Source: Beroe forskalii (taxonomy: Eukaryota > Ctenophora > Nuda > Beroida > Beroidae). From it: a stretch of DNA of 64,000 nucleotides. This document shows, in pieces, positions 3,575-62,989 of the stretch. A program made the position numbers and the translations under genes. Position 1 is the stretch's first letter. The number at the start of each line of letters is the position of its first letter. The stretch lies in NCBI GenBank assembly GCA_011033025.1, contig WFMF01000245.1:124001-188000 (forward strand). The letters run 5' to 3'. The notes under the pieces were generated by a model. The model was not told the origin of the DNA. It searched no databases and was given only the letters and a program-made list of their open reading frames with translations.

Positions 3575-4417
3575 TTTCAATGAAACGTTCGAACGGTTAG
3601 TAAAGTTTTTTAACGTATAAACAATAATATATTACATATTTACAATTACATCACACTTTACACATAAAATACAATTCCTTAAAAAACCCTAAAAACCCCT
3701 AACCTGTTCTTACTTTCTTAGTTATCTGAAAGCATTGAACGCATCTAAACCAAAATCACTTGAAATATATTCATTAATTGTCTCGCCAACCTTCACCCTA
3801 GTACCCCTAATACATCTTACATGACTTTATGCATAAAAAGAAAGTTTGCATCGAAGCCAATTTAAAACGTCATCGTATTGTTCATTGTTTTTTCCGCCAG
3901 CTTTTGACACAAAGATGTAATAAATGTATTACATTCCTTTCCTAATGTGCCAAAACAGTAAAAACGAGTGGCGTAAAAGTTCCATGTTCGTTTGTCATGA
4001 CTCGGTGATTGTAGTTTCTCTTCTTTTCTTTTTCGTGTTGATCCAGAACACTTTTAACACTACTCTTCATTGCTGTGGCACAGAAAGGGTTTGTGACACG
4101 TACATCAAAGTACATCAAAGTACGGTTAGTAAAGTTGATCAGATGTTAGCAAATAGCAAAGCGGGCAACTGGAAATGAGCATGTGACAGGGATATAGTGT
4201 TCCACGTTGCCATGGGGATTTTCCATATTTCAGACTGCTCCTTCAGAATATTTTTTGGTCTGCACGTAACTCGAATAACTCCTTCGCAAGTGCGCGTCGC
4301 ACTGCATTTCACAATACATGCAATCATATCCGTGCTGACTGCTGAATCGGAAAAGTCTCTCTGAAGTGACCCACCGGCCGCGGCCCAAACCTCACAGTAA
4401 AGTGAAGTTTTTGATCA

Positions 4418-10545: not shown

Positions 10546-13500
10546 TTATCCGGAACTTTTTAACCTAGGGTCCTTGTTCTTCGTTAAACTCGGCATTTCT
10601 GTGATGGGCTTCACTCCGCCACTGAAGCTCGGCGGGGGCCGAAGCGCCAAAGTCCGACGATACAGCGGCGATTTCGTGCAGGGGCTCTTAGGACTCCTCC
10701 CGTCGCTGGTTTCGCTGCTCGACGACATTTTCCGCTTCCGACCGTCGTCGGAGAGCGGCGAGGGCGAGCAGATGAAGTCCTCGGAGGAGCGCCGTGCCGC
10801 TTGTCGCTTGTTGATGAGCGCCTGGTCGAGGTTGTAGAGCTCCGTGTGGAAGTGCTTGACGTGGGAGGGAGTGTGGGGGTGCTCCGGGTCCCGCAGGTGC
10901 TGGAGGGCCCCGGACAGGGGGAAGAACATCCTGTGCGTGCCCTGGATGTCGAACTCCTTCTCCTCACTCAGGATCTGGGAGTTAGAAGGTCAGAAGGGGT
11001 TAGGGGAGTTGGAATGACTTAGGAGCTTGGGGCTAGAAGAAGTTAGGACCAGGGAAGTTAGAAAGGGTTTAAGGAACTGAGGTTTAGAAGGGAGTATATG
11101 ATCCAAGCCGAACTATGAGAATGTTGAAAACTTAAGTTTTAAAGCATTCTGAGATTTTTGAAATTCATCGAACAAATTATTTGACTCTGTGCCGGGATTA
11201 AACTCTCATCTGTCTAGACACGCACCAGCTGAGGGATGCTACACCAAGCACTTTTCTCACCTGACAGAGACACACAGTAAATCGGGTGTTGTTATCGTCC
11301 ACGAATGTGATGGGTTTGATGATCGGATGAGGCCGGACGTTGAACCCCGCTTGTTTGAGCACCGCCTGGCAAGCTAGTGGCACAGCCTCCTCGATGGCCA
11401 TGTCAGGTATCCTGGCAGTGGGCATTTCCCAGTACATGGGCGAGCTGTGGGCGTGGGAGCCCCAGTAGTCCAGGCACTGCCGACACTTCTCCGCGATCTC
11501 TGCGGAGATGAGTGCGAAGCTGTCAGTGAACTGGTCGCTCCATGCCGTGTTGGTGGGGATGGCCTGGAACAGGGCCTGGAGCTTGTCCGGCTCGTTGCAC
11601 ACCTCCAGCACCTTGATCACCTCACTCCGTTCCATCTTGTTAATGAGGCATGTCAGGGTGGTCAGCACTGTGCCGTACTTGTCTGTTCCGTCTGTGTCTA
11701 CGAGGGGCTTCAGCAAGCGCAGAAACCTCCTGGGGGATCAGGTGTCAGTGACTTGGACATGTGCCAAAAAACTACTGGGGGACCGGGTGTCAGTCTCTTG
11801 GAAATGTGCCAAAAACTCCTGGGGGAATGGGAGATCGCGTGTCAGTCACTAGGACATGTGCCAAAAACTCCTGGGGACCTGGTGTCAGTCACTTGGACAT
11901 GTACCAAAAACTCCTGGGGGACCGAGTGTCAGTCACTTGTACATGTGCCAAAAACTTCTGGGGGAATGGGAGATCGCGTGTCAGTCACTAGGACATGTGC
12001 CAAAAACTCCTGGGGGACCGGGTGTCAGTCACTTGGACATGTGCGTAAAACTCCTGGGGACCGGGTGTCAGTCACTTGGAAGTTGGACATGTGCCAAAAA
12101 CTCCTGGGTGTCAGTCGCTTGGACATGTGCCAAAAACTCCTGAAGGACTGGGTGTCAGTCACTTGGACATGTGCCAAAAACTCCTGGGGGACCGGGTGTC
12201 AGTCACTTGGACATGTGCCTAAAACTCCTGGGGACCGGGTGTCCGTCACTTGGAAGTTGAAAATGTGCCAAAACTCCTGGGTGTCAGTCGCTTGGACATG
12301 TGCCAAAAACTCCTGAAGGACTGGGTGTCAGTCACTTGGACATGTGCCAAAAACTCCTGGGGGACTGGGTGTCAGTCACTTGGACATGTGCCTAAAACTC
12401 CTGGGGACCGGGTGTCAGTCACTTGGAAGTTGGACATGTGCCAAAAACTCCTGGGTGTCAGTCTCTTGGACATGTGCCAAAACCTCCTGGGGGACCGGGT
12501 GTCAGTCACTTGGACATGTGCCAAAAGCTCCTGGGGACCATGAGAATTGTGCTTGAGTGTTATGATGAGCCAAGAACTGCGTGAGCTTGTAATGTGCATT
12601 GGACAATGTGTACATTGTAATATGTGCAACTTCAATTCCTGTCTCCGCGGTATTACATTTTAAAGGGGTAGTATACTCCAGGAAAAGTGCCTTTTCTTAT
12701 TGTCCAATTTACTAACTAATACTGTGATGATAACTTGTGTGAAATCCCTATGTTTCTATGTGCCTCCAATCGCGAGATATCGCACCTTTATGTTATGGCG
12801 CGATGACGTCACTCTCGCATCAGGCCACAAACTTGCGCTATGAACGCTATGTAAAGTACTGCATATTCCACAATACCTTCACCACTATTAGTTAAGCACA
12901 TTGAATTTTTTTGTTCCATTTTTTTGTGTATGAGATTAGAATTATGAATTATCATTTTACCACTTCATTAATGCTATTGATTGCCCATTAATTGGACAAT
13001 TACTTTGTTATAAGGTGTAATTTGAATAAGTCGGACTTGGTTTATGATTGATGCCATTCGAATATTCCAATGTTGTAGCGTAATATTTGTTGCTGGACAG
13101 TGGGTCTAGTCATATTTCACAGGACAGATGTACTCCGAACATTTTTTTTAATGAAAATGAATAATTATGTATGTTTCCTCATGTTGATCATATTAGATAT
13201 GTAGATAAAAATACACAGATGATCAGTATTTATTAAGAATGAAATTGATAGCGTAACCACCAATGTGTCACAACAACATCCAATCTAAATAGCTTTAGTA
13301 CAGATCAAACTGTTTTCTGAAGAAATAACCTTGAATATTCAGAATATCCAACAATGAACTGATCAATATAACGTTGGTACTTGGTGTACTGCAGAATGAA
13401 GCTTGATATTCACATTTGAAATTCCTCAACATGATATTTCAATATGCTACATCTGAGATGATGGCTGATGCTACTCACTCTCACTACTGGTCCCTATCAC

Positions 13501-34339: not shown

Positions 34340-34780
34340 GGAACATGATTAGGCTCTATCAGCCTCCATTGAGGCTGAGTGAAGGCTGAATGGAGGCTAA
34401 TTTCAAAAAAAATAGCCTTTATGGAAGCTTATGGAGGCATGAGGCTAATTTTTGAAAAATAGCCTCCACTATGGAGACTAATCAGCGTCCAATAGCCTCC
34501 ACTGCGCCTCCATGGAAGCTAAAATTTTGGTTTAGCCTCCACTGGCCATCACTGAAGAATTAGCCTCCATTAGCCTCCACAGAAACTGATAAAGTCATTT
34601 TTGGAGTTAATGGAAGCTTTTTTAGTGCTAATGGAGGCTATACACTCCATTAGCACTGTTTGTACAAAAAGAGCGCATTTTGTAACATAGACCAAAATTT
34701 CTGAGCCAGCTGGTATAAGGCCTCCACTAAGCTCCACTCAGTCCCACTGGGCTCCATTAAGCCTCCACTAGTCTCCCTCA
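34340..34780. repeat. AGCCTCCACT / AGTGGAGGCT mirror-type repeat, block A
   Basis: Irregular, densely repeated GGAGGCTAAT and TAGCCTCCACT words in both orientations can form many small stems. The block B counterpart (49175-49430) lacks the last 150 bp. Confidence 0.7.
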
Positions 34781-35275
34781 ACGGTACCTTATTAACAATG
34801 GTACCTTATTAACAACGGTACCTTGCTAAAAACGGTACCACGTAAACAACGGTACCTTATTAACAACGGTACCACGTAAACAACAGTACCACGTTAACAT
34901 CGGTACCTTATTAACAACGGTACCACGTTAACATCGGTACCTTATTTACATCGGTACCTTATTAACATCGGCACCTTATTAACATCGGTAACTTATTAAC
35001 ATCGGTACCTTATTTACATCGGTACCTTATTAACAACGGGACCTTATTAACAACGGCACCTTATTAACAACGGCACCTTATTAACAACGGTACCAGGTTA
35101 ACAACAGTACCACGTTATTAATAACAACGGTACCTTATTAACAACGGTACCTCATTAACAACGGTACTTTATTAACAACGGCACCTTATTAACAACGGTA
35201 CCTTATTAACAACGGTACCTTATTAACAACGGTACCTTATTAACAACGGTTCCTTATTAACAACACATTGAGGAA
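34780..35275. repeat. 17-bp minisatellite, block A copy
   Basis: Units of AACAACGGTACCTTATT with variants TTAACATCGGTACC and CACGTAAACAACGG. It is followed by the shared segment beginning AAGACAACTTGAACACC. Confidence 0.85.
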
Positions 35276-35794: not shown

Positions 35795-38385
35795 GGAAAG
35801 TCAACTGAAACTCATTTCTCATAGCATCACTAGGGCCCGTAAATTCGCACTTTGCGTTCGTCGCCAATTTCATAATTTTCGGCAAATACCCAACCTCAAC
35901 TCTTTACTTATGGGGTCACATACTTTTACGTTTTCCACAACGACTTGGGCGTCCTCGCGAGAATTGCAGTAAGTTCTGGTGTGAAGTAGCTGACTTGTGA
36001 GTTAGAGGTATATCAGATCGAAAGTATTAACCATATTTTGCTTCTTAGGCAACTGCTCCATGGTCCCGAGTGGTAGAAGCTTGACTTTCAACTTGGAATG
36101 AGGCTTGTTTAGTTCTAAAACCGGCACTTTGGATTTTCGATTAGTTTTAGGATCTTCAATTTTCAGATCCTTCACACCATCTTCAATCTTCTCATCATCG
36201 TCGTCCTCTTCTTCTTCTTCAATGACTTCTTCAAGGGTTGCGGGTTGTTCCTTTGGGGCTGCTAGCGTGAACCGGTCGGGTTTCGGAGGTTTATCGTAGG
36301 TCCTTCCAGTGTTGATTTGGTGAATGAGACATCACGTTAAACTCATACCTTACCTCGCTCATGTCCGCACGTTTAGTCTGTTTCGTGCCGCAAGAAACGG
36401 AGATTTCAAGGCAAGGGTTACAGGAAAATGTTATGGAAGGTACCCTCAGTTTTTTTTGCTTTTTTATCAAAAAGAAACTTACTCAATTCATGTTTCTTAA
36501 CTTCCCACAATTTTGATCCTAGAAATCTCTTAATTCTATAAGTGCGATCAAATTTAAGTGTCTGCCCATTGCATATATAGCCTGAAATATGTTGCGATTA
36601 AGTTGTGTCAAAGACCAAATTGGTACGCAGTGGGCCAGTGGACGTAGTGGTGCCAAAGACACGAATTGGTATCTATGAAGTCTGAGGTAGTGTTGTGAAA
36701 GGAAGTGATATCCCATGAATATGGGCTCTATCTCATCTCATTTAGCTCTTCAGTATTCCCATTGCATTTTTAAGCGTACTATTATTCAACAATAACTCAA
36801 TAACAACATTGGTATATAATAATTTAAATTTCAGAAAACTATGTTTTTCTATCCTTAATGTCATAGTGCTATGGTTCCTACCTCGTACATCTCCTTGAGA
36901 GTTGAGTAGATCCCGTGAGCCAAGTAAGAACACGATGTCCCCCAGTATCCCGAGGCCAGTCTCTTCGAGCCTCCGATCATCTTCACAATGCCACTACAGG
37001 GCGTTCTGTTAGGTGTGTCGTACACCATCGCGAACTTCAAAACTAACTCCTGGGAGGTAAGAAGTGTCACGTACACAAAAACTAACTTCTGGGGGTAAGA
37101 AGTGTCACGTACTTCAAAACTAACTCCTGAGAGGTAAGAAGTGTCACGTACTTCAAAACTAACTCCTGGGGGGGGGTAAGAAGTGTCACGTACTTCGAAA
37201 CTAACTCCTGGGGGGTAAGAAGTGTCACGTACTTCAAAACTAACTCCTGGGGGGGTAAGAAGTGTCACGTTCTTCAGAACTAACTCCTGGGGAAAAGAAG
37301 TGTCACGTACTTAAAAACTAACTCCTGGATAAGAAGTGTCACGAACTTCAGAACTAACTCCTGAGGTAAGAAGTGTCACGTACTAAAAACTAACTTCTGG
37401 GGGTAAGAAGTGTCTACGTACTTCAAAACCTTCTGGGGCAAAGTGTCACGTACTTCAAAACTATCTCCTGGGGTAAGAAGTGTCACGTACTTTAAAACTA
37501 AGTTCTGGGAGGTAAGAAGTGTCACGTACTTCAAAGCTAACTCCTGGGAGGTAAGAAGTCACGTACTTCAAAACTAACTCCTGGGCAGTGAGAAGTGTCA
37601 CGTACTTTAAAACTAACTTCTAGGGGGGTAAGAAGTGTCGTACTTCAAAGCTAACTTCTGGGGCAAAGAAGTGTCACGTACTTCAAACTAACTTCTGGAG
37701 GTAAAATGGCACGTGCCAAAAGCTAACTCCTGGCCGTAAGAAGTGTCACGTACTTTAAAAACAAACTCCTGGGAGTAAGAAATGCCTCGAATAGCTGAAT
37801 GTAAGATCACTGATCGAGTAGCTTAATCAACACTTCAAAACTATGGAGTTAATCATTTTTATCGATGGTTTGAGTTTCGTTTAAATTTGGAGTTTATACT
37901 TAACATTAGCAATTCCAGTAACCCCATTCTGGGGAAAGTGGATGGAAAGAGTCACAAGAACAAGTCACACACAAAGCATAACACAGAGATATGGACTGAT
38001 CAAATCACAGCACTTCTGTACTGTGGTTTGTAGATTACAATAACACAGAGATGTGGACGAATCAAATCACAGCACTTCTGTACTGTGGTTTGTAGATTAC
38101 AATAACACAGATATGGAAGGATCAAATCAGAGCACTTCTGTACTGCGGTTATTAGATTAAAATACACTATGGGACTACACCCCCTCCCCCCATTAGGCGA
38201 GGCTGCCCCCCTAGAAAAAAATTTAGGGGCCTTTGCTCCTAGCTCGAAAAGGTGTGAAATGGTAAATACACACACGCTTCTCCTCACCAGTTTGTCTCCA
38301 TGTGGCGTACTCGTTGAAGTCGAGTAAGCTGGCTCTCTCCTTCAGTTTTCATACTGAAGTCCCTCGTACACGTTCCTTCCAACAT
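35795..38385 (-). pseudogene. DNAAF3: DNAAF3 3' part, first copy in block A (A1), broken
   Basis: Exon 7-like (about 35800-36385), exon 6-like (36890-37035) and the inner part of exon 5 (about 38290-38385) are recognisable on the minus strand by similarity to the intact gene. Exons 1-4 are absent. Compared with the second copy (A2) and the intact gene it has many one- and two-base indels in coding sequence: the exon 7 acceptor is lost, and exon 6 lacks two bases beside the DTPNRT motif. It runs into the hybrid sequence at 38390. The indel pattern, mixed with nearly perfect non-coding identity to A2, suggests poor consensus quality as much as true decay. Confidence 0.8.
37036..37790. repeat. 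39-bp splice-acceptor array, A1 copy
   Basis: About 19 units built from GTAAGAAGTGTCACGTACTT plus CAAAACTAACTCCTGGGG. The order of variants matches the array at 40637-41375 almost unit for unit, with more indels. Confidence 0.85.
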
Positions 38386-38389
38386 CGTA

Positions 38390-38870
38390 CCTTTTCCCTA
38401 GGTAGCTCCTAACAACGGTACATTATTGCTTCAGGTACCTCCTGGACAACGGTACCACGGCTCCATCCTCCCACGTTAACATCGGTACCCCTGACAACGG
38501 TACCACGTTCCATCGAGAACCTTATTTCCATCGAGTGGCTCCTGACTTAACATCGGCACAACCACTAACATCGAGTAACTGGCTAACATCGGTACCTTAA
38601 ATCAGGAGTACCTTCGCTCCATCTGACCTTATTAACAACGGCTCCTTATTAACAACGGCTTTGGGAATCCCACAGTACCAGGTTAACAACAGTACCCCGT
38701 TATTAATAACTCGGGTACCTTACAACAACTCCATCTCATTAACAACAGTACTTTATTAACAACGGCACTCTTAATCAACGGTACCTCCATTAACAACGGA
38801 ACCTTATTAACTCCTAGGTACCTTATTAACAACGGTCCCTTATTAACAACTCCATTGAGAAGACAACTTG
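38390..38870. other. Hybrid of two unrelated minisatellites (probable assembly seam)
   Basis: Words of the 64-bp array (GGTAGCTCCT, CGCTCCATCTGA, GGGAATCCCACAG) alternate within single units with words of the 17-bp array (AACAACGGTACC, TTAACATCGG). Following only the 17-bp words reproduces the unit order of 34.9-35.3 kb. No simple recombination interleaves two arrays this way. A consensus of misaligned reads would. Confidence 0.75.
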
Positions 38871-40636
38871 AACACCAATAAAACTGAATCAGAACTAATG
38901 ACCAGACCTGCAGCACAGGTGCATTTATATATGATGGCTGACACCACTCCGTCATCTATGACGAACAGCGGCGTATGCACATTCCACATACCAACTCTAT
39001 GACGTTGACACCACTCGTAACCTAATCAAGCATGACGAACAAGGTGCACATACCGTTGACACCACTCACTTTTCAATCACTTTCGCACTTCTTTCCCCAA
39101 TCACCCGCGACTATCTATCACTACGTGGTACAGTCCAACCAAATTTCGCTTTAACTTTCGCGCGGAGAGCGCACGCGCCGTGGTCCGGCGCGCGCGCAGC
39201 CAGCTCATAAAAAGATAAGTTGTGGGCGATTTGCTACTTTACCCTTTCATGTATTTGCGCCCTCCAACAACACAACTATTTCTGTGTGACCGATTGTTGT
39301 TGGTTATTCGAGACATCAAAAGCAGACCACTGACTTGAAAGACACCACCCGCTAATTCCAGCTATTCAACTCGGTGGAAAGTCAACTGAAACTCATTTCT
39401 CATAGCATCACTAGGGCCCGTAAATTCGCACTTGGCGTTCGTTGCCAATTCCTTAATTTTCGGCAAATACCCAGCCTCCAACTCTTTACTTATGGGAGTC
39501 ACATACTTAACGTTTTCCACAACGATTTGGGCGTCCTCCTTGAGAAGTGCTGTAAGTTCTGGTGTGAAGTAGCTGACTTGTGAGTTAGAGAGGTATATCA
39601 GGTCGAAAGTATTAACCATATTTTGCTTCTTAGGCAACTGCTCCATGGTCCCGAGTGGTAGAAGCTTGACTTTCAACTTGGAATGAGGCTTGTTTAGTTC
39701 TAAAACCGGCACTTTGGATTTTCGATTAGTTTTAGGATCTTCAATTTTCAGATCCTTCACACCATCTTCAATCTCTTCATCATCGTCCTCTTCTTCTTCT
39801 TCTTCAATGACTTCTTCAAGGGAGCACAGGTTGTTCCTTTGGGGCTGCTAGCGTGAACCGGTCGGGTTTCGGAGGTTTATCGTAGGTCCTTCCAGTGTTG
39901 ATTTGGTGAATGAGAGACATCACGTTAAACTCGCTTACCTCACTCGCCGTCCGTACGTTTAGTCTGTTTCGTACCTGAAAACGGAGATTTCAAGGCAAGG
40001 GTTACAGGAAAATGTTATGGAAGGTACCCTCAGTTTTTTTTGCTTTTTTATCAAAAAGAAACTTACTCAATTCATGTTTCTTAACTTCCCACAATTTTGA
40101 TCTAGAAATCTCTTAATTCTATAGTGCGATCAAATTTAAGTGTCTGCCCATTGCATATAGCCTGAAATATGTTGCGATTAAGTTGTGTCAAAGACCAAAT
40201 TGGTACGCAGTGGGCCAGTGGACGTAGTGGGTGCCAAAGACACAGGTGGTATCTATGAAGTCTGAGGTAGTGTTGTGAAAGGAAGTGATATCCCATGAAT
40301 ATGGGCTCTATCTCATCTCATTTAGCTCTTCAGTATTCCCATTGCATTTTAAGCGTACTATTATTCAACAATAACTCAATAACAACATTGGTATATAATA
40401 ATTTAAATTTCAGAAAACTATGTTTTTCTATCCTTAATGTCATAGTGCTATGGTTCCTACCTCGTACATCTCCTTGAGAGTTGAGTAGATCCCGTGAGCC
40501 AAGTAAGGAGAACACACGATGTCCCCCCAATACCCTCGAGCCAGTCTCTTCGCTCCTCCGATCATCTTCACAATGCCGCTACAGAGCGTTCTGTTAGGCG
40601 TATCGTACACACCATCGCGTACTTCGAAACTTACTC

Positions 40637-41375
40637 CTGGGAGGTAAGAAGTGTCACGTACACAAAAACTAACTTCTGGGGGTAAGAAGTGTCACGTACT
40701 TCAAAACTAACTCCTGTGAGGTAAGAAGTGTCACGTACTTCAAAACTAACTCCTGGGGGGTAAGTGTCACGTACTTCGAAACTTACTCCTGGGGGGTAAG
40801 AAGTGTCACGTACTTCAAAACTAACTCCTGGGGGTGAGAAGTGTCACGTTCTTCAGAACTAACTCCTGGGGAAAAGAAGTGTCACGTACTTAAAAACTAA
40901 CTCCTGGATAAGAAGTGTCACGAACTTCAGAACTAACTCCTGAGGTAAGAAGTGTCACGTACTTTAAAACTAACTTCTGGGGGGTAAGAAGTGTCACGTA
41001 CTTCAAAGCTAACTTCTGGGGCAAGAAGTGTCACGTACTTCAAAACTATCTCCTGGGGTAAGAAGTGTCACGTACTTTAAAACTAAGTTCTGGGAGGTAA
41101 GAAGTGTCACGTACTTCAAAGCTAACTCCTGGGAGGTAAGAAGTGTCACGTACTTCAAAACTAACTCCTGGGCGGTGAGAAGTGTCACGTACTTTAAAAC
41201 TAACTTCTGGGGGGTAAGAAGTGTCACGTACTTCAAAGCTAACTTCTGGGGCAAGAAGTGTCACGTACTTCAAACTAACTTCTGGAGGTAAGAAGTGGCA
41301 CGTACTTCAAAGCTAACTCCTGGCCGTAAGAAGTGTCACGTACTTTAAAACAAACTCCTGGGAGTAAGAAATGCC
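40637..41375. repeat. 39-bp splice-acceptor array, A2 copy
   Basis: About 19 units. The sense (minus) strand unit is GAGTTAGTTTTGAAGTACGT followed by GACACTTCTTACCCCCCAG. The CAG|GAGTTAGTTT of each unit copies the acceptor and first bases of exon 6. The unit length of 39 equals 13 codons and the exon frame continues through the array as repeated VSFEVRDTSYPPG. Confidence 0.92.
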
Positions 41376-41750: not shown

Positions 41751-42032
41751 CTATGGGACTACACCCCCTCCCCCCATTAGGCGAGGCTGCCCCCCCCCCC
41801 TAGAAAAAATTTAGGGGGGCCTTTGCTCCCTAGCTCGAAAAGGTGTGAAATGGCATTAAATACACACACGCTTCTCCTCACCAGTTTGTCTCCATGTGGC
41901 GTACTCGTTGAAGTCGAGTAAGCTAGCTCTCTCCTTCAGCTTCATACTGAAGTCCATGTCGTACACGTTCCTCCCTGCATCGTACCGGTCTCCTAGGAAG
42001 CTCCTGACTCGGGAATCCCATAGTCGCTCCAT

Positions 42033-44400
42033 CTGAGAAGAGAAAGGTAAGCTCTCCCAGGTAGCTCCTGACTCGGGAATCCCACAGCCGCTCCATCTGA
42101 GAAGAGAAAGGTAAGCTCTCCGAGGTAGCTCCTGACTCGGGAATCCCACAGCCGCTCCATCTGAGAAGAGAAAGGTAAGCTCTCCTAGGTAGCTCCTGAC
42201 TCGGGAATCCCACAGCCGCTCCATCTGAGAAGAGAAAGGTAAGCTCTGACTCGGGAGGTAGCTCCTGACTCAGGAATCCCACAGTAGCTCCATCTGAGAA
42301 GAGAAAGGTAAGCTCTCCGAGGTAGCTCCTGACTCGGGGGAATCCCACAGCCGCTCCATCTGAGAAGAGAAAGGTAAGCTCTCCGAGGTAGCTCCTGACT
42401 CGGGAATCCCACAGTCGCTCCATCTGAGAAGAGAAAGGTAAGCTCTCCGAGGTAGCTCCTGACTCGGGAATCCCACAGTCGCTCCATCTGAGAAGAGAAA
42501 GGTAAGCTCTCCGAGGTAGCTCCTGACTCGGGAATCCCACAGCCGCTCCATCTGAGAAGAGAAAGGTAAGCTCTCCTAGGTAGCTCCTGACTCGGAAATC
42601 CCACAGCCTCTCCATCTGAGAAGAGAAAGGTAAGCTCTCCTAGGTAGCTCCTGACTCGGGAATCCCACAGTTGCTCCATCTGAGAAGAGAAAGGTAAGCT
42701 CTCCGAGGTAGCTCCTGACTCGGGAATCCCACAGCCGCTCCATCTGAGAAGAGAAAGGTAAGCTCTCCTAGGTAGCTCCTGACTCGGGAATCCCACAGCC
42801 GCTCCATCTGAGAAGAGAAAGGTAAGCTCTCCTAGGAAGCTCCTGACTCGGGAATCCCATAGTCGCTCCATCTGAGAAGAGAAAGGTAAGCTCTCCGAGG
42901 TAGCTCCTGACTCGGGAATCCCACAGTCGCTCCATCTGAGAAGAGAAAGGTTAGCTCTCCGAGGTAGCTCCTGACTCGGGAAACCCACAGTCGCTCTATC
43001 TGAGAAGAAAAAGGTAAGTTCTCCGAGGTAGCTCCTGACTCGGGAATCCCACAGCCACTCCATCTGAGAAGAGAAAGGTAAGCTCTCCAGGAGGTAGCCC
43101 CATCTGAGAAGAGAAAGGACTCAGGGAACCCGGGAGCCACTCCATCTGAGAAGAGAGAAAGGTAAGCTCTCCGAGGTAGCTCCCTGACTCGGGAATCCCA
43201 CAGCCGCTCCATCTGAGAAGAGAAAGGTAAGAGTAAGCTCTCCAGGTAGCTCCTGACTCAGGAATCCCACAGCCGCTCCATCTGAGAAGAGAAAGGTAAG
43301 CTCTCCGAGGTAGCTCCTGACTCGGGAATCCCACAGCCGCTCCATCTGAGAAGAGAAAGGTAAGCTCTCCCTGAGGTAGCTCCTGACTCTAGGGTGGCTC
43401 TGACTCGGGGAATCCCACAGCCGCTCCATCTGAGAAGAGAAAGGTAAGCTCTCCTAGGTAGCTCCTGACTCAGTAACCCCACAGTCGCTCCATCTGAGAA
43501 GAGAAAGGTAAGCTCTCCTAGGTAGCTCCTGACTCGGGAATCCCACAGCCACTCCATCTGAGAAGAGAAAGGTAGCTCTCGAAGCTCTCCGAGGTAGCTC
43601 CTGACTCTGAGGAATCCCACAGCCGCTCCATCTGAGAAGAGAAAGGTAAGCTCCGAGGTAGCTCCTGACTCGGGAATCCCACAGTCGCTCCATCTGAGAA
43701 GAGAAAGGTAAGCTCTCCGAGGTAGCTCCTGACTCGGGAATCCCACAGCCGCTCCATCTGAGAAGAGAAAGGTAAGCTCTCCGAGGTAGCTCCTGACTCG
43801 GGAATCCCACAGCCGCTCCATCTGAGAAGAGAAAGGTAAGCTCTCCGAGGTAGCTCCTGACTGAGAAGGAATCCCACAATCCGTCCATCTGAGAAGAGAA
43901 AGGTAAGCTCTCCGAGGTAGCTCCTGACTCGGGAATCCCACAGCCGCTCCATCTGAGAAGAGAAAGGTAAGCTCTCTAGGTAGCTCCTGACCTGGGAATC
44001 CCACAGTCGCTCCATCTGAAGAGAAAGGTAAGCTCTCCTAGGTAGCTCCTGACTCGGGAATCCCACAGCTCCGCTCCATCTGAGAAGAGAAAGGTAAGCT
44101 CTCCGAGGTAGCTCCCTGACTCCGGGAATCCCACAGCCGCTCCATCTGAGAAGAGAAGGTAAGCTCTCCGAGGTAGCTCCTGACTCGGGAATCCCACAGC
44201 CGCTCCATCTGAGGAAGAGAAAGGTAAGCTCTCCAGGGTAGCTCTGACTCAGGGGATCTGGGAAGAAGGTAAGCTCTCCTAGGTGGCTCTCCATCTGGGC
44301 TCCAAGAAGGTAAGCTCTCCTGGGTAGCTCCTGACTCAGGAATCCCACAGCCACTCCATCTGAGAAGAGAAAGGAAAAACTCCAGGGCTCCCTGACTCCC
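42033..44400. repeat. Expanded 64-bp splice-acceptor array, block A (about 36 units)
   Basis: The plus-strand unit is GGGAATCCCACAGCCGCTCC, then ATCTGAGAAGAGAAAGGTAA, GCTCTCCTAGGTAGCTCCTG and ACTC. On the sense strand each unit is about 20 bp of intron end (CTTACCTTTCTCTTCTCAG) plus the first 44 bp of exon 5. Units near 42033 are regular; from about 43080 to 44400 they become irregular, with inserted and lost bases, up to the junction with block B. Confidence 0.93.
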
Positions 44401-49439: not shown

Positions 49440-50025
49440 AACCTTATAAACAACGGTACCACGTAAACAACGTTACTAGGTTAACAACAGTACCACGTTA
49501 ACATCGGTACCTTATTAACAACGGAACCTTATTAACAACGGAACCTTATTAACAACGGTACCTCATTAACAACAGTACCACGTTAACATCGGTACCTTAT
49601 TAACAACGGAACCTTATTAACAACGGAACCTTATTAACAACGGAACCTTATTAACAACGGTACCTTATTAACAACGGTACCTTATTAACAACGATACCTT
49701 ATTAACAACGGTACCTTATTAACAACGGCACCACGTTAACATCGGTACCTTATTAACAACGGAACCTTATTAACAACGGTACCTTATTAACAACGATACC
49801 TTATTAACAACGGTACCTTATTAACAACGGTACCTTATTAACAACGGTACCTTATTAACAACGGTACCTTATTAACAACGGTACCTTATTAACAACGGTA
49901 CCTTATTAACAACGGTACCTTATTAACAACGGTACCTTATTAACAACGGTACCTTATTAACAACGGTACCTTATTAACAACGGTACCTTATTAACAACAG
50001 TACCTTATTAACAACACATTAAGCA
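49440..50025. repeat. 17-bp minisatellite, block B copy
   Basis: About 34 units. The right half is homogeneous AACAACGGTACCTTATT and the left half mixed with CACGTTAACATCGG and GGAACC variants. The following AAGACAACTTGAACAC segment matches the other three loci. Confidence 0.88.
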
Positions 50026-51060: not shown

Positions 51061-54000
51061 CTATTCCACTCGGTGGAAAGTCAACTGAAACTCATTCCTC
51101 ATAGCATCACTAGGGCCCGTAAATTCGCACTTTGCTTTCGTCGCCAATTCCTTAATTTTCGGCAAATACCCAGCCTCCAACTCTTTACTTATGGGAGTCA
51201 CATACTTAACGTTTTCCACAACAACTTGGGCGTCCTCCTTGAGAATTGCAGTTAGTTCTGGTGTAAAGTAGCTGACTTGTGAGTTGGAGAGGTATATCAG
51301 GTCGAAAGTATTAACCATATTTTGCTTCTTGGGCAACTGCTCCATGGTCCCGAGAGGCAGAAGCTTGACTTTCAACTTGGAATGAGGTTTGTTTAGTTCT
51401 AAAACCGGCACTTTTGACTTTCGATTACTTTTAGTTTCTTCAATTTTCAGATCCTTCACACCATCTTCAATCTTCTCATCATCATCTTCTTCTTCTTCTT
51501 CTTCTTCAATGACTTCTTCAAGGGTTGCAGGTTGTTCCTTTGGGGCTGCTAGCGTGAACCGGTCGGGTTTCGGAGGTTTGTCGTATGTCCTTCCAGTGTT
51601 GATTTGGTGAATTAGTGACATCACGTTAAACTCGCTTACCTCACTCGCCGTCCGTACGTTTAGTCTGTTTCGTACCTGAAAACGGAGATTTCAAGGCAAA
51701 GGTTACTGGGAAATGTAACAGGAAGGTACACTCGGTTTTTTGTTTCTGTTTTTTTTTCATTTATTCAAGTTCCTTAATTTCCCACAAGAACATTGGTATA
51801 TAATTATTACAGCTTCTGCAAACTATGTTTTTCATAACAATATTATAATTTTCCTATCATTAATTTGTTATAGTGTTATGGTCCCTACCTCGTACATCTC
51901 CTTGAGAGTTGAGTGGATCCCGTGAGCCAAGTAAGGAGAACACACGATGTCCCCCCAGTACCCTCGAGCCAGTCTCTTCGCTCCTCCGATCATCTTCACA
52001 ATGCCGCTACAGAGCGTTCTGTTAGGCGTGTCGTACACGCCATCACGTACTTCGAAACTAACTCCTGGACGGTAAGAAGTGTCACGTACTTCAAAACTAA
52101 CTCCTGGGGTAAGAAGTGTCACGTACTTCAAAACTAACTCCTGGGGAGTGAGAAGTGTCACGTACTTCAAAAGTAATCAAATCACAGCACTTCTGTACTG
52201 TGGTTTGTAGATTACAATAACACAGAGATATGGACGGATCAAATCACGGCACTTCTGAACTGTGGCTTATAGATTAAATAATACACCATGGGACTACACC
52301 CCCCTCCTCCATCAGGCGAGCCCCCCCCTAGAAGAAAATCTAGGGGGGCCTTGGCCCCCACTTGCTCGAAAAGGTGTGAAATGGCATTAAAAACCCACGC
52401 TATTCCTCACCAGTTTGTCTCCACGTGGCGGACTCGTTGAAGTCGAGTAAGCTAGCTCTCTCCTTCAGCTTCATACTGAAGTCCATGTCGTACACGTTCC
52501 GTCCCGCATCGTACCGTTCTCCTAGGTAGCTCCTGACTCGGGAATCCCACAGCCGCTCCATCTGAGAAGAGAAAGGTAAGCTCTCCGAGGTAGCTCCTGA
52601 CTCGGGAATCCCACAGTCGCTCCATCTGAGAAGAGAAAGGTAAGCTTTCCGAGGTAGCTCCTGACTCGGGAATCCCACAGTCACTCCATCTGAGAAGAGA
52701 AAGGTAAGCTCTCCTAGGTAGCTCCTGACTCGGGAACCCCACAGTAGCTCCATCTGAGAAGAGAAAGGTAAGCTCTCCTACATAGCTCCTGACTCGGGCA
52801 TCCCACAGCCGCTCCATCTGAGAAGAGAAAGGTAAGCTCTCCTAGGTAGCTCCTGACTCGGGAATCCCACAGCCGCTCCATCTGAGAAGAGAAAGGTAAG
52901 CTCTCCTAGGTAACTCCTGACTCGGGAATCCCACAGTCGCCCCATCTGAGAAGAGAAAGGTAAGCTCTCCGAGGTAGCTCCTGACTCGGGCATCCCACAG
53001 CCGCTCCATCTGAGAAGAGAAAGGTAAGCTCTCCAGGTAGCTCCTGACTCTAGAATCCCACAGCCGCTCCATCTGAGAAGAGAAAGGTAAGCTCTCCGAC
53101 GTAGCTCCTGACTCGGGAATCCCACAGTCCCTCCATCTGAGAAGAGAAAGGTAAGCTCTCCAGGTAGCTCCTGACTCGGGAATCCCACAGTCGCCCCATC
53201 TGAGAAGAGAAAGGTAAGCTCTCCGACGTAGCTCCTGACTCGGGAATCCCACAGTCCCTCCATCTGAGAAGAGAGAGGTTAGGCTACGTCACTTGAACAT
53301 TATAAATTGTACAATGTATATTTTAGAAGAGTAAATGTATCTTACATAGTATCAAATATCAGAGAGCTGCTATGGGGAAATAATTAATGGTAAATCAATA
53401 AATCGACAAATTCTTTGCCTCTCTTATAATTCTTCAATTAATTCGGGCCAATTCTCGAACTCTACAACCCCAATCCAAACATTTCCATTGTCCACAAACC
53501 GGGAAAGTCTCCTCATTGGTCTCAGAAGCAGCCCAGAACTTGAAGATGCCCTCCATAAAGTCCCTTTCTTTGAACTTGAGAAGGGACAAGTCCACCATGG
53601 GTAGGATATCCCTCAAATAATCCTCATCTGTTACCATTCTGTGGGAGAGAAAAGAGGAGATCTAAGACAAGAAGATAAGATAATGAGAGTGATAGCGCTT
53701 GAAGTTAATTAACAATTATAGTAGTTCAATTGCAGTGATAAAATTTTCACTGCAAAATTTCACTGTAATTCACCACATCTAATGAGCAAAGTGTGCGAAG
53801 TGTGATATAAATTTTCCAATTTGATGATAACAAGTACCTGATGAAATTAGGGATGTTGTTCTTGACGAATTTAAAGCTGGCAGATCTCACGTGACTGTTA
53901 CCATAGAGATCCAAATACATCTCCGTCTTTTCCTGTGCAATGTATTGTATACTGATGTATATTGTATATTGCATGTTCCACAATGTATAGATGCAGTACA

Positions 54001-54977
54001 GTGTGCTAAATCATCATACGTCTGCATGTCTACAGAGGGATTGATAGTTAAAGTAGCTATTGAATACCCGTTGATTCTTTGATTGTTCTTAATTTATTAT
54101 CCTTGTTTTACAAATCAAAGTAGATAACTCAGCTCCTGACTCCTACAAAAGGCTTTAGAAAAACGCTACACAAATTATAGTACCGTGGTGTACCGACCTA
54201 GTTTACGCCGCGTAACGACCAAGTGTTATGCGCATTGAGTTTTTCTGTGCTGAAAATGCAGATAGTAGCTAACTTTTGATAGATACCTATCAAAAGTTGT
54301 CCACATCGAAAAGCATAAAACACGACTTACCCCTGGGAGCCGGGGTGTCAACTGGCATAAACTAGGTCGGAACACAACACAGGTATTCCGTTTCGGGGAT
54401 AGGAATTCATTCCCCTACCCCACACCATTTACCTGGAGTCCCATCAAGTGAGAGGGTTGGAGGAGGACCGAAAGAAGGAGGAGATGTCGGCAGTAGAGTT
54501 CCAAGTTGGTTTCCATCAGATAAACTTCCACTTCCCTACCACTGCACATCTGGAATGGGGATTGCAGATCATCTAGGGGCCGGGGCCTACTACTATATTA
54601 GTAGTAGAACCCCCCCCTAGGTGTCGACAGACTTGAAAGGAGGGGTCAACAGACAAAAAAGGGCCGGGAAAATAGGTTTCATGAAAACGGGGTTAACAAG
54701 GGTAGGGTTAGAAGACGTGTTATCTTGTTCAAAGTATTGTGCATTATTGCGAAAGTGGGGTTAACAGGGGCGGGGTAAACACTAGAATTGCCACAATACA
54801 TGTACGTCTGAGAAATGTGTGACAACTAACCAGTCGCAGGATGTGTCTGAGGTCGTTAGTACCCACGCAGAGGACCCTCAAAGGACCCTCCTGGTTGTGG
54901 GAACAGTAAGTGGAGAGGTCGGAGGAGGGGGAGAATCCCCACCAGGAGAGGTGACCGACGCCTTCCAGAAGAGACAT
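51061..54977 (-). CDS. DNAAF3: Dynein axonemal assembly factor 3, complete, seven exons
   Basis: Exons (minus): 54831-54977, 54433-54549, 53838-53932, 53500-53638, 52411-52561, 51889-52064 and 51061-51675. All borders are GT-AG, the phases agree and the coding sum is 480 codons with stop. The start ATG sits in TTCACCATGT. The order of motifs follows animal DNAAF3: LSWWGFSP and LRHILRL near the start, VYLMETNLELYCRHLLLLSV, LLKFKERDFMEGIFKFWAAS, MERLWDSRVRSYLGERYDAG, DTPNRTLCSGIV with ARGYWGDI, an acidic stretch (EEEEEEEDDDEK) at about residues 310-322, then LLPLGTM and FDLIYLSNSQVSYFTPEL. These correspond to the paired N- and C-terminal DNAAF3 domains (DUF4470/DUF4471). The protein acts in cytoplasm in pre-assembly of axonemal dynein arms. 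Introns 4 and 5 end in arrays made of their own acceptors. Length is slightly below the human protein. Confidence 0.95.
52065..52170. repeat. 39-bp splice-acceptor array in DNAAF3 intron 5 (about 3 units)
   Basis: The short form of the array sits directly upstream of exon 6 in the intact gene. The nearest unit is in frame with exon 6 (VSFEVRDTSYRPG joined to VSFEVRDG), so use of the next acceptor upstream would add 13 residues. Confidence 0.9.
52562..53277. repeat. 64-bp splice-acceptor array in DNAAF3 intron 4 (about 11 units)
   Basis: The units are the same as in the block A array and begin at the first base of exon 5. Each holds CTTTCTCTTCTCAG|ATGGAG, identical to the true acceptor. Units differ by single substitutions (for example GCC/GTC before GCTCC, TAGG/GAGG/GACG), and two units lack a few bases. 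Confidence 0.93.
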
Positions 54978-55856: not shown

Positions 55857-57140
55857 CTAGCAATCTTTCACAACTTCAGTGGACATTCTGCTCACGTAGT
55901 AAAGAAGAGAAAACGGATCACTAAGGTCAATATCACCATGGTACTTCCTAACAAACCTCGTGATGTCAAACATTGCTCTATCAATGGTGAACTCGACCTC
56001 CGACTCCGAGAACTCAGCGGGGTTTATTGCCTTCGCCACAACGCGATACAAGTCCGCAATGCGTTCCTGGGCGAACTTGACATCGGGGCCCATCAGATGA
56101 AGGTACCTCAACAGAGACACGATCTCCCCACTCACAGAGTGAGGTCTCTCCCAGTCCAGGAACTTGGTTTTCAGGTACTCCGGATCGGAGAAGGGCTCCG
56201 AGTTAGCCAGGATGGGGATAGCATACATGTTGTAACTGTCAATGGCTTGGTACAGGTCCCACTGTTGCTCCTGGAGTTGTCTCACAGTCCGTTCCACGTT
56301 GCCCCTCGAGGGGTTGCTACTGCCCGGAACGAGGAAGGACCGGATCTTGCTCAGGACTGGGTAGTTGCAGTAGAGCTTCTGCAGGGCTGGGTTGTTACTG
56401 GTTCTGGGGATGGTGCCCAGTAGGAAGGTGTTGAAGAGGGTGTAACCTGCCCGAATAGCACATTCCAGCTTCACTTTGAAGTGAAACAGCATGAACAGGG
56501 TGAGAAGGGCCGGCTTGTTGAACACGTACAGATCGTGGATGTCACAGTCATCATCCTTCTCCTCGATATCAAACAGTCGTCCATCTGATGCCATGACAGC
56601 TTTCCAATCTTCGAATATATCTTCGTTTGTGTCAGGGTAAAACTGGTGAGAGTAGGATCGCAACAGTTTCTTTGGTTTGAGATACCTGTCAGGGGTAGTT
56701 GAGCACTGTGAAAGTACTGCATCTTTGATGATGCTATAGGCGGAGTGGAATCTGTCTTCCGTTAGGAGCAAGCAAACCAGTTTAAACCTCATGCTATTGT
56801 AATCTGTTTTGTAGTTCATGAGGTGCTCGACAGCGAGCTCAAAGGGAAGTTCACAGTTGTTGTCAACGTCGCACTTCAGGAGAAGATGAACGTAGTCCGA
56901 AGCACACTTCAGCACTTCACTCTCCGTCATGTCACTCAGCTTCGCCTCGCGGATCTTAGACAGGGCCACGCAGTGGGGCTTGTGGGATTTCCAGCTTTGT
57001 CTCTGACACTTAGCGGAACAATACTTGATAGCCCGGCACTTGGTACAAGTCAGTCGACCCACGGAGCTGCAGGTGCTACAGGTGAAAACAGTGCGGTCCA
57101 GAGAGACGGAGAAGAGGAAGGTCTCTTTGCTGCTAGCCAT
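55857..57140 (-). CDS. MYND zinc-finger protein, tandem copy 1
   Basis: Single-exon ORF of 427 codons starting at ATG 57140. Residues 21-57 are a MYND finger with ligands C21, C24, C32, C35, C41, C45, H53 and C57, containing CTKCRAIKYCSAKCQ. MYND fingers bind proline-rich partner peptides. The remaining 370 residues are mostly helical, with LLTLFMLFHFKVKLECAIRA at about 213-232 and a C-terminus ending in MSTEVVKDC. I see no SET domain, so it is not an ordinary SMYD methyltransferase, and I do not recognise the C-terminal part. A second gene 5 kb away differs at about 16 residues. Lack of introns suggests retroposition or an intronless lineage-specific family. Confidence 0.9.
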   Translation of the reverse strand: MASSKETFLFSVSLDRTVFTCSTCSSVGRLTCTKCRAIKYCSAKCQRQSWKSHKPHCVALSKIREAKLSDMTESEVLKCASDYVHLLLKCDVDNNCELPFELAVEHLMNYKTDYNSMRFKLVCLLLTEDRFHSAYSIIKDAVLSQCSTTPDRYLKPKKLLRSYSHQFYPDTNEDIFEDWKAVMASDGRLFDIEEKDDDCDIHDLYVFNKPALLTLFMLFHFKVKLECAIRAGYTLFNTFLLGTIPRTSNNPALQKLYCNYPVLSKIRSFLVPGSSNPSRGNVERTVRQLQEQQWDLYQAIDSYNMYAIPILANSEPFSDPEYLKTKFLDWERPHSVSGEIVSLLRYLHLMGPDVKFAQERIADLYRVVAKAINPAEFSESEVEFTIDRAMFDITRFVRKYHGDIDLSDPFSLLYYVSRMSTEVVKDC

Positions 57141-58760
57141 AGGGAACCTAGAATTGGTAATCTGAATCAGTCAAAGATAAATCGCAGAAAAACCATAGAC
57201 ACATTTGACATAACAACTTATTAGCAAGCATCTTAGTTCAGGTATTTCATTTTATCTTGAATATACCCCGCGTACATAAATAGGCGGTTACTTTCAACAA
57301 TTTGGCAGCAACAAGGGTTAGAGTCAATGCTTTGGGTAAGATTTTGGTTAGGGTCAGGACTGAGTGATGAAATGGCAAAACGCGAAACGTCGACAGTGGA
57401 TTTGAATAGTTATTAAGTACCTATAATATAACACGGTCAAGCGATTTATGCGACTATATAGCCTATAGGTAAGGCATGGCGATTGGCGTTGGTATGACCC
57501 ATGTGAGCATATAAAAATATAACGGGCATTTCACCTTCAACCTTAATAATTCTATCAATACTATATTACATACTTAAATACATACTTAAATTCCTAGGAA
57601 CTACCAACGGAAGATACACCTTAATAAGGTTATTCGATGAACATTAACGACAGTAAAGTAAACTTATTGACTGATGACTAACCAAGGTCCCGGAATGAAA
57701 CTGCAGACATTGTCAATTAGCAATAATTTTACCCCAGGAAGTTGTAAAATAAACATTCGAACTGAGTTAAACCAATCAGGAGTTTATTACTTGTCAAAGC
57801 AATCAGGTTGACCTAGTAAGCATTGACCTATAGTGTATAATCGAAATTTGAGACGATGTCTGATGACCCAGTTTGGAATGTTAGGTATCACAAAAAGTAG
57901 TTACACACATTGTGATTCATAGTAGAAATTAGCATCATCATCCGAAACTCAGCTACCCATTTTACCAATAATTACAGGGGATGTATAGGATGGATACATG
58001 GGATGCAATTTTCTCAAGGAGTGCAGAGCATCCCGTGCATCCCCTCTGGCTACCTGGCTGAACCGATAATACATTAATACAATCAATTATCATATCTACC
58101 ACTGATTTTAACTCAATTTAAATCAATTGTCGATTGACGATTGATTCGATGCATAAGCTCATTATAAGCAAAGAAAGGGGACGTAAAATTATTCCAATTG
58201 AATGAAGATTACGAAAATTAAAATACTATTTTCATCCGAACGAATACTGTAAAACCAATTCATGGTGATTGAGAAGTCAACAAATCATATATATTGTATT
58301 TTTGAATTTTTTAAATTTTCCTTTGCTTAAGACGTCCTATTAAGATTTAAACAAATCAATAGTTCCAAACACTCAATTATAAAAAAGTAAAAGTAGTCAG
58401 CAAAAGCTATAAAGACAGGATACATTGTTGTCATTGAACTTGCTAAGATTGTCAATTTACTTGCAACACCCGATATGAATTTTATATATACACTATAATA
58501 CATTTCAATGACTATACAATGATAACAAATACATTTCACAGAATATGCTAGTCACGCTTTTAATAATAACTTAATAAGACTGTTATCATAATATCGACTC
58601 AGTACAATAATAACTGTGTTATGCGCAGCCCCATCATGTATTGTAAACTGTTGTGTCAGTATTAAAATTATAACGTTACTAGAATTACTAAATTATAGAG
58701 TTATTGCAAACTCATTAACTGCAATGATGATATCAAATAAAGAAATAAGTTAAAAAATTT
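57141..58760. other. Upstream flank of MYND gene 1, duplicated at 62149-63870
   Basis: No gene was seen. Up to about 58545 it aligns with the flank of MYND gene 2 (for example ACGATGTCTGATGACC and GAATGCAGAGCATCCC-like words). So the duplication unit includes at least 1.4 kb upstream of the gene and presumably its promoter. Confidence 0.65.
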
Positions 58761-60864: not shown

Positions 60865-62148
60865 CTAGCAATCTTTCACAACTTCAGTGGACATTCTGCT
60901 CACGTAGTACAGTAGAGAAAACGGATCACTAAGGTCAATATCACCATGGTACTTCCTGACAAACCTCGTGATGTCAAACATTGCTCTATCAATGGTGAAC
61001 TCAACCTCCGATTCCGAGTACTCAGCGGGGTTCGTTGACTTCGCCACAACGCGGTACAAGTCCGCAATGCGTTCCTGAGCGAACTTGACATCGGGGCCCA
61101 TCAGATGAAGGTACCTCAACAGAGACACGATCTCCCCACTAACAGAGTGAGGCCTCTCCCAGTCCAGGAACTTGGTTTTCAGGTACTCCGGATCGGAGAA
61201 GGGCTCCGAGTTAGCCAGGATGGGGATGGCGTACATGTTGTAACTGTCAATGGCTTGGTACAGGTCCCACTGTTGCTCCTGGAGTTGTCTCACGGTCCGT
61301 TCCACGTTGCCCCTCGAGGGGTTGCTACTGCCCGGAACGAGGAAGGAACGGATCTTGCTCAGCACTGGGTAGTTGCAGTAGAGCTTCTGCAGGGCTGGGT
61401 TGTTACTGGTTCTAGGGATGGTGCCCAGGAGGAAGGTGTTGAAGAGGATGTAACCTGCCCGAATAGCACATTCCAGCTTCACTTTGAAGTGAAACAGCAT
61501 GAACAGGGTGAGAAGGGCCGGCTTGTTGAACACGTACAGATCGTGGATGTCACAGTCGTCATCCTTCTCCTCGAGATCAAACAGTTGTCCATCTGATGCC
61601 ATGACAGCTTTCCAATCTTCGAATATATCTTCGTTTGCGTCAGGGTACAACTGGTGAGAGTAGGATCGCAACAGTTTCTTTGGCTTGAGATACCTGTCTG
61701 GGGTAATCGAGCACTGGGAAAGTACTGCATCTTTGATGATGCTATAGGCGGAGTGGAATCTGTCTTCCGTTAGGAGCAAGCAAACCAGTTTAAACCTCAT
61801 GCTATTGTAATCTGTCTTGTAGTTCATGAGGTGCTCGACAGCGAGCTCAAAGGGAAGTTCACAGTTGTTGTCAACGTCGCACTTCAGGAGAAGATGAACG
61901 TAGTCAGAAGCACACTTCAACACTTCACCTTCCGTCATGTCACTCAGCTTCGCCTCACGGATCTTAGACAAGGCAACGCAGTGGGGCTTGTGTGATTTCC
62001 AGCTTTTTCTCTGGCACGTGGCGGAACAGTACTTGATAGCCCGGCACTTGGTACAAATCAGTTTTCCCTCGGACTTGCAGGTGCTACAGGTGAAAACAGT
62101 GCGGTCCAGAGAGACGGAGAAGAGGAAGGTCTCTTTGCTGCTCGCCAT
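60865..62148 (-). CDS. MYND zinc-finger protein, tandem copy 2
   Basis: Single-exon 427-codon ORF from ATG 62148, the same length as copy 1. All eight MYND ligands are kept, but the finger carries six of the roughly 16 amino-acid differences: S25K, V27E, R29K, T31I, K44T and Q48K. Others include S74G, F168L, AI to ST and F to Y near residues 371-377. The C-terminal 200 residues are nearly unchanged. Both copies look intact, so both are probably expressed. Orientation and flank match copy 1, consistent with a direct tandem duplication of about 3 kb. Confidence 0.9.
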   Translation of the reverse strand: MASSKETFLFSVSLDRTVFTCSTCKSEGKLICTKCRAIKYCSATCQRKSWKSHKPHCVALSKIREAKLSDMTEGEVLKCASDYVHLLLKCDVDNNCELPFELAVEHLMNYKTDYNSMRFKLVCLLLTEDRFHSAYSIIKDAVLSQCSITPDRYLKPKKLLRSYSHQLYPDANEDIFEDWKAVMASDGQLFDLEEKDDDCDIHDLYVFNKPALLTLFMLFHFKVKLECAIRAGYILFNTFLLGTIPRTSNNPALQKLYCNYPVLSKIRSFLVPGSSNPSRGNVERTVRQLQEQQWDLYQAIDSYNMYAIPILANSEPFSDPEYLKTKFLDWERPHSVSGEIVSLLRYLHLMGPDVKFAQERIADLYRVVAKSTNPAEYSESEVEFTIDRAMFDITRFVRKYHGDIDLSDPFSLLYYVSRMSTEVVKDC

Positions 62149-62989
62149 AGGGAACCTAGAATTGGTAATGTAAATTAGTCAAAGATAAATCGCAGAAAAA
62201 TCATAAACACATTTAACATAACAACTTAACAAGCATTTCAGTTTATCTTGAATAGTTGAATATACTCCGCGCACAAAAATATGCGGTCATTTTCAACATA
62301 CCGCTGAATTATGAATAGTGAATAGGTACCAGACCTAATGAGATAATATCAAAATTCAAAATATCATAATTTTCGAGGAACTTCCAACCGAAGATGAACA
62401 TTAATGACAATAAAGTACCAATTGACTGATGACTAACCAGACAGCAGAGAGACAGAGTCTATTAGCAATAATATTACCCCGGGAAGTCGTAAAATAAACA
62501 TTCGAACTGTCCTGAGTTAAACCAATCAGGAGTTTATTACTTGTCAAAGAAATTAACCTTGTGTATAATCGAAATTTGAGACGATGTCTGATGACCTAGT
62601 TTGGAATGTGTAGGTATCACAGAAAGTAGTTACACACATCTTGTTAATTCACAGTGGAAATTAGCATCATCATCCGAAACTCAGCTGCCCATTTTACCAA
62701 TCATTACAGGCGGATGCATAGGATGGATACATACATAGGGGATGCAATTTTCTCAGGGAATGCAGAGCATCCCCTGCATCCCCTCTGGCTACCTGGCTGA
62801 ACCGATAACTAATCAATTATCATATCAACCTACTGATTTGAAATCAATTGTAGATTGACGATTGATTCAATGCATAAGCTCATATTAACTTATTAAGCAA
62901 AGAAAGGAAACGTAAAATTATTCCAATTAAATGAAGATCACGAAAATTTAAAATAATATTTCCATCCGAACGAATACTGTAAAACCAAT
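62149..62989. other. Upstream flank of MYND gene 2
   Basis: It aligns with 57141-58260 with scattered indels (a block around 57300-57530 is missing here). No separate feature was seen. Confidence 0.6.

Follow-up and report, generated by a model that had tools for sequence, protein, structure and literature searches.

On the minus strand of the window (the whole 64-kb stretch of DNA analysed here), a gene model of seven exons runs from 54977 to 51061. Its conceptual protein of 479 amino acids matches the Pfam families DUF4470 (5.3e-18) and DUF4471 (5e-86), both in one protein. These two domains mark DNAAF3, a cilia-assembly gene that acts in ciliary dynein assembly. Exons 1 to 4 each occur at one place within the window. 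The features of the gene, all on the minus strand, are as follows:

54831..54977, minus strand: DNAAF3 exon 1 (gene model)
54433..54549, minus strand: DNAAF3 exon 2 (gene model)
53838..53932, minus strand: DNAAF3 exon 3 (gene model)
53500..53638, minus strand: DNAAF3 exon 4 (gene model; PF14740 exon match)
53264..53283, minus strand: most upstream acceptor, 20 nt (CCTAACCTCTCTCTTCTCAG), with 3 of 20 bases off relative to the other 11 and similar to the lone acceptor of the copy on contig C627
52518..53279, minus strand: 64-bp tandem array with 12 acceptors, the unit being 20 nt of intron end (CTTAC, pyrimidines, CAG) plus 44 nt of exon 5 (TRF; unit cutting)
52411..52561, minus strand: DNAAF3 exon 5, 3' of the last acceptor (gene model; DUF4471 match in one stretch)
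52043..52176, minus strand: 39-bp tandem array across the exon 6 acceptor of DNAAF3, 3 acceptors found (TRF; unit cutting)
51889..52064, minus strand: DNAAF3 exon 6 (gene model; PF14740 exon match)
51061..51675, minus strand: DNAAF3 exon 7 (gene model; PF14740 exon match)

The 3' end of intron 4 consists of 12 tandem acceptors between 52562 and 53264, as delimited by cutting the units at the acceptor, and TRF describes the array with a period of 64, 11.9 copies and 93% matches. On the minus strand, the last intron bases lie at 53264, 53200, 53137, 53073, 53010, 52946, 52882, 52818, 52754, 52690, 52626 and 52562, spaced by 64 bp in nine of the 11 distances and by 63 in the other two. The 20 nt of intron end read GCTTACC-TTTCTCTTCT-CAG, with a branch-point-like CTTAC, and lead into the opening 44 nt of exon 5. 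A pyrimidine tract and CAG are present in all 12 units, and the final 20 intron bases (GCTTACCTTTCTCTTCTCAG) are the same at every acceptor except the most upstream one. That acceptor departs from the rest at three bases and is similar to the one acceptor of the C627 copy, and hence was probably where the intron first ended. A check of the sequence on either side of the array (53280-53500 and 52405-52520) found no direct repeat. Given the length and identity of the array, we judge that chance is ruled out as its source. On the plus strand of the same interval, each 64-bp unit resembles, by eye, a 41-nt intron (GTAAGC ... CTGAC ... CACAG) with a 23-nt exon.

An earlier note on this DNA had described a DNAAF3 gene on the minus strand with a 64-bp unit and about 12 near-identical acceptors, and TRF, unit cutting and Pfam bear it out. 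It had also described the unit as phased to the first exon base. This phasing is a choice of frame, because a tandem repeat that crosses a border must include it; what stands is that the repeated segment spans intron position -20 to exon position +44.

The choice among tandem acceptors

Joining exon 4 to the last acceptor (52562) gives the uninterrupted 479-residue protein of the gene model, in which the DUF4471 match forms one stretch (residues 135-459, profile positions 1-300 of 303). An open, in-frame exon 5 follows from two of the 12 acceptors, the last one and 52754, and the other 10 lead to a frameshift or a stop; a further pattern hit at 53540 lies inside exon 4 and was excluded from the 12. 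Acceptor 52754 inserts 64 amino acids and splits the DUF4471 match into two stretches, with equal total scores for the two in-frame acceptors (289.9 vs 289.1 bits). Exon 5 measures 151 nt from the last acceptor, compared with 215 to 853 nt from the others. Because the 479-residue protein is intact, its DUF4471 match unsplit and 10 of the 12 acceptors unproductive, homology suggests that the functional DNAAF3 mRNA would use the last acceptor. The earlier claim that the array bears directly on splicing is not upheld by these predictions, which favour the last acceptor as the protein-making one and leave 10 of the 12 with a frameshift or stop. We also considered whether the array is itself coding. 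Long open stretches occur in all three frames of the minus strand, but an in-frame open exon arises from only two of the 12 acceptors in the gene and two of 39 pattern hits in its duplicated fragment B (see below), and this reading was rejected.

The variation among units is unevenly distributed. In the 11 inner units of the gene array, none of the 220 cells of the intron part is changed, compared with 26 of the 484 cells of the exon part; by columns, 0 of 20 intron and 13 of 44 exon columns are variable (Fisher p = 0.006, or 0.02 if CpG columns are dropped). The difference by columns is modest, and units are related by exchange and hence non-independent in these statistics. The larger array of fragment B, counted over 34 pieces with 210 bases of the stretch uncovered, has 2 of 671 intron cells and 48 of 1457 exon cells changed (p = 0.024 by columns), two columns supplying 21 of the 48 changes. 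Selection on splice signals was not accepted as the cause: fragment B, without a complete gene in the window, has equally low variation in the signal part.

Further copies of DNAAF3

Two fragments of DNAAF3 are duplicated within the window at 35-44 kb. Fragment B comprises exons 5-7 at 94-97% DNA identity to the gene, and exons 1-4 were not found for it within the window. Fragment A comprises part of exon 5 and exons 6-7, at 88-92% DNA identity. The units of the 39-bp array at the exon 6 acceptor likewise consist of intron end and exon start, and both fragments carry arrays:

41989..44258, minus strand: bigger array of the DNAAF3 64-bp unit in fragment B, TRF 35.5 copies (TRF; exon matches)
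40618..41370, minus strand: 39-bp array across the exon 6 acceptor of fragment B, 20 acceptors found (TRF; unit cutting)
37034..37781, minus strand: 39-bp array in fragment A, 19 acceptors found (TRF; unit cutting)

At the expected site of the 64-bp array, fragment A (38400-38860) has pieces of the 64-bp unit mixed, by eye, with an unrelated 17-bp repeat (AACAACGGTACCTTATT). This stretch looks like two merged sequences, possibly an assembly error. Fragments A and B are 94.2% identical, with 85 gaps in 2,836 columns and many small indels. Elsewhere in the window, a 17-bp unit with a GGTACC palindrome forms three arrays (6314-7474, 34779-35264 and 49441-50015), and in two of these the distance to the 3' end of a DNAAF3 copy is no more than ~1.1 kb.

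Contig C627 (locus L007) carries another DNAAF3 copy, with exons 2-5 and some of exon 1, whose intron 4 has a single acceptor and no array. Protein identity to the gene is 100% for exons 2-4 and 96% for exon 5 (94-97% and 87% at the DNA level). Since the exons are near-identical in protein while the longer stretch including introns is only ~74% identical, the coding part appears to have been kept by selection, or else C627 is an old allele. Neither exon 6 nor exon 7 of this copy came up in the DUF4471 search, and both were likewise not found within the 3-kb locus and the 6 kb that follow it. Its intron 5 carries repeats related to the 39-bp units, which run into another minisatellite. From the presence of these repeats in a copy that has no 64-bp array, the 39-bp repeats seem to be older than the 64-bp array; alternatively, the array may have been lost in C627. 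Repeat number thus differs among copies, from one acceptor in C627 to 12 in the gene and 35.5 TRF units in fragment B.

With one acceptor, no array and near-identical exon proteins, the C627 copy argues that the array is unnecessary for defining its intron 4. The earlier note had looked to intron 4 of a sister species for a sign that the array is incidental. The related intron is indeed plain, with one acceptor, and it belongs to a gene copy, not to a sister species.

Arrays at other borders of the assembly

The density of tandem arrays was estimated in the assembly (216 Mb, 1,134 contigs) from 11 stretches of 10 kb, taken at one fixed position per contig from contigs longer than 110 kb (14 of the 25 contigs requested were too short). 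Arrays detected by TRF with a period of 15 or more and a score of 80 or more make up 9,979 of the 110,000 sampled bases, or 9.1%. Exon pieces were identified with Pfam in two ways: 80 ORFs near arrays gave seven pieces at a cut-off of 0.01, and another 20, chosen for a high codon score and clear of arrays for 80 bases around, gave 14 at a cut-off of 0.001. The resulting 21 pieces belong to actin (4), Kelch (4), RFX (3), kinase (3) and PP4R3 (2), with one each for thioredoxin-like, AhpC, CBM21, tubulin and sulfotransferase. The PP4R3 match at L018 268-624, the AhpC-TSA match, one actin piece and one Kelch piece fall below Pfam's cut-off. We left out a reverse transcriptase match and weak matches to an NPB13-like family (0.0035) and a phage spike family (0.0085, ORF untraced).

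An array spans the border in two of the 21 exon pieces, one certain and one probable, in a small sample drawn unevenly in two unequal looks, so that the array-bearing share is likelier over- than underestimated. The certain case is the donor of a Kelch gene, which sits in the middle of a two-copy 43-bp repeat (L010 4367-4449; last exon base 4408). The other is a PP4R3 acceptor at a 40-bp array with 8.4 TRF copies (L018 591-923). It is probably located in the last unit, because the sequence from there to where the Pfam match starts is free of AG and this strand has a second PP4R3 exon further upstream; the PP4R3 match behind this call is weak (3.3e-4, below cut-off). At three further borders an array starts 4 to 12 bases into the intron: a Kelch acceptor whose last intron base is 5157 (20-bp array L010 5168-5234), a tubulin donor whose intron starts at 9372 (L018 array from 9376) and another Kelch donor (20-bp array L010 5568-5669, first intron base about 5672, by eye). 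The sulfotransferase exon contains an in-frame coding repeat (L012 765-942) and no border array. Chance placement suffices to explain the arrays that span borders, as a coverage of 9.1% would by itself put arrays over no fewer than two of the roughly 42 borders.

Other surveys covered the assembly and the window more broadly. A kinase profile survey gave 135 matches, and 11 Wnt exon matches were found in the assembly. For the other arrays of the window (11741-12537 etc.), two zf-MYND matches, one in each set, were obtained among 10 + 81 ORFs scanned (one in both) of the 314 passing the filter; a weak Imm2 match (0.0044) in the window scan was taken as chance. Two minus-strand ORFs of 437 amino acids (55860-57170 and 60868-62178) are 96% identical over their full length, with a MYND zinc finger in the first, and this pair represents a recent tandem gene duplication.

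The mitochondrial COX1, on contig C1134, reads by code 4: AGR falls at arginine in 5 of 7 cases, TGA at tryptophan in 4 of 4, and ATA at isoleucine in 6 of 10 and at methionine in none. The protein is identical at 221 of 429 positions to its best PDB chain, 7o37_a, a mammalian protein. Amphioxus mitochondria use a code other than 4. In a search for a spliced leader, a 17-base pattern made of the end of the Hormiphora leader (sequence as given in the cited part of PMC8527503) and the donor GT, with one mismatch allowed, matched three times, compared with two in the control. Code 4 and the Wnt matches point to an animal outside the groups that use codes 5 or 2, perhaps a ctenophore, a placement to which the leader matches lend no support.

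Interpretation of the border array

Arrays of this architecture have precedents. In the passages cited here, amphioxus 'mirages' are minisatellite-like duplications of intron-exon borders, for which normal splicing and length instability are reported (PMC3087553, PMC3902484). In the globin gene BflGb6 the unit is the 3' end of an intron with the 5' part of the next exon, and two haplotypes have six and three units (PMC3087553, PMC3902484). The DNAAF3 array is likewise a minisatellite-like tandem repeat over a border, with splice signals in many units and a number that varies between copies, and its unit has the same composition as that of BflGb6. All 12 units span the border from intron -20 to exon +44, splice signals are kept in 12 of 12, and the repeat number varies among gene copies (1, 12 and TRF 35.5). 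The units are 64 and 39 bp long here, whereas those of amphioxus measure 10-72 bp (Adh3) and 150-160 bp (BflGb6). Relative to the amphioxus cases, the copies are more numerous, at 12 for the gene and 35.5 by TRF for fragment B, one gene has two affected acceptors in succession, and the evidence used here is genomic. The host also differs from the mirage hosts, being an animal with mitochondrial code 4 and not a cephalochordate, although the host is not part of the defining architecture. The view that the array is unusual therefore holds in part: its kind has been published as mirages in amphioxus (PMC3087553, PMC3902484), and similar arrays occur here at the second DNAAF3 acceptor, at the Kelch-gene donor and probably at the PP4R3 acceptor.

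Two other systems bear comparison. In genes of human segmental duplications, internal tandem repeats that lie at borders can give rise to new introns, as transcripts support (PMC2812944). Those cases share with DNAAF3 border minisatellites in recently duplicated genes, variable among paralogs, but differ in that an intact DNAAF3 protein requires removal of the array. In the Rogers model, cited in PMC3087553, introns are gained through tandem duplication of AG/GT sites. Here too, tandem duplication over splice signals converts exon copies to intron, but DNAAF3 acquires no new intron; the intron keeps its position and its 3' end is lengthened. Border minisatellites appear, among the papers listed, in amphioxus and in duplicated genes of humans. 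We conclude that the DNAAF3 array is a real example of the published kind, in a lineage without a report among those papers.

We consider it likely that the array is an incidental minisatellite that straddles the border and is tolerated, splicing to the last acceptor taking it out with the intron. It looks like a by-product of a genome rich in short tandem repeats, in keeping with the high array density of the sample, the similar arrays at other borders and the differing copy numbers among DNAAF3 copies. It would have started with a tandem duplication across the border of intron 4 and exon 5 and grown by slippage or unequal exchange. Duplication of a border would leave a whole intron upstream and a whole exon downstream, so that the array could be tolerated. 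Under exon definition, the exon 5 donor would pair with the nearest acceptor, the upstream copies would leave as intron and the protein would be unchanged, making the array near-neutral. Three points count against this reading. The C627 copy used for comparison lacks exons 6 and 7 as far as it was searched. Of the 12 acceptors, the one furthest upstream (53264) is preceded by the better branch-point-like motif, CTAAC, and a 'first AG after branch point' rule predicts its use, which would add 702 nt and bring a stop after 161 codons. The near-invariance of the intron part also runs against the expectation of plain neutral drift, an argument that is weak because the units are non-independent and 21 of the 48 changes in fragment B fall in just two columns.

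The same retention of signals could instead reflect a splicing rheostat, in which upstream acceptors are used part-time, the resulting frameshifted or stop-bearing mRNA is destroyed and copy number sets the amount of DNAAF3. The pyrimidine tract and CAG kept at all 12 acceptors, the unproductive mRNA expected from 10 of them and the lower variability of the splice-signal part in both the gene and fragment B arrays fit such a scheme. We nevertheless regard it as unlikely: fragment B, for which exons 1-4 were not found in the window, has an equally invariant signal part, which argues against selection on DNAAF3 output; intron 4 of C627 has no array; and amphioxus mirages are reported, in the passages cited, to be harmless to splicing (PMC3087553). 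Equally improbable is the related proposal that variable-number 3' splice modules (branch-point-like motif, pyrimidine tract, AG and exon start) compete with the true acceptor and tune DNAAF3 output. If true, array length would tune functional DNAAF3 and hence ciliary dynein assembly.

The occurrence of arrays at two consecutive DNAAF3 acceptors and at borders of two other genes, with three further borders that have an array within 12 bases, could point to a splicing- or transcription-linked mutational process that seeds tandem duplications preferentially at intron-exon borders. We give this little credence, since the spanned borders in two of 21 exon pieces compare with about four expected from array coverage, albeit in a small and uneven sample, and a selective filter against arrays inside exons would yield the same picture. 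Least probable of the readings weighed is that misassembly accounts for part of the copy number or of fragments A and B. The mixed stretch in fragment A and the many small indels between A and B speak for it, and an aberrantly assembled mirage was noted in the amphioxus draft, according to the cited passage (PMC3087553). Yet the units of the gene array are clean and carry their own variants, and the 64-bp unit is found at a second place too; an artefact would alter the acceptor count, not the existence of the array.

Read as a tolerated border minisatellite, the DNAAF3 array extends mirage-type arrays from amphioxus, their one host in the papers listed under that name, to an animal whose mitochondria use code 4. 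The copies are more numerous here, and a gene copy with one acceptor allows a comparison. Arrays of this sort offer a natural test of the way a choice is made among identical acceptors, setting distance from the branch point against distance to the downstream donor.
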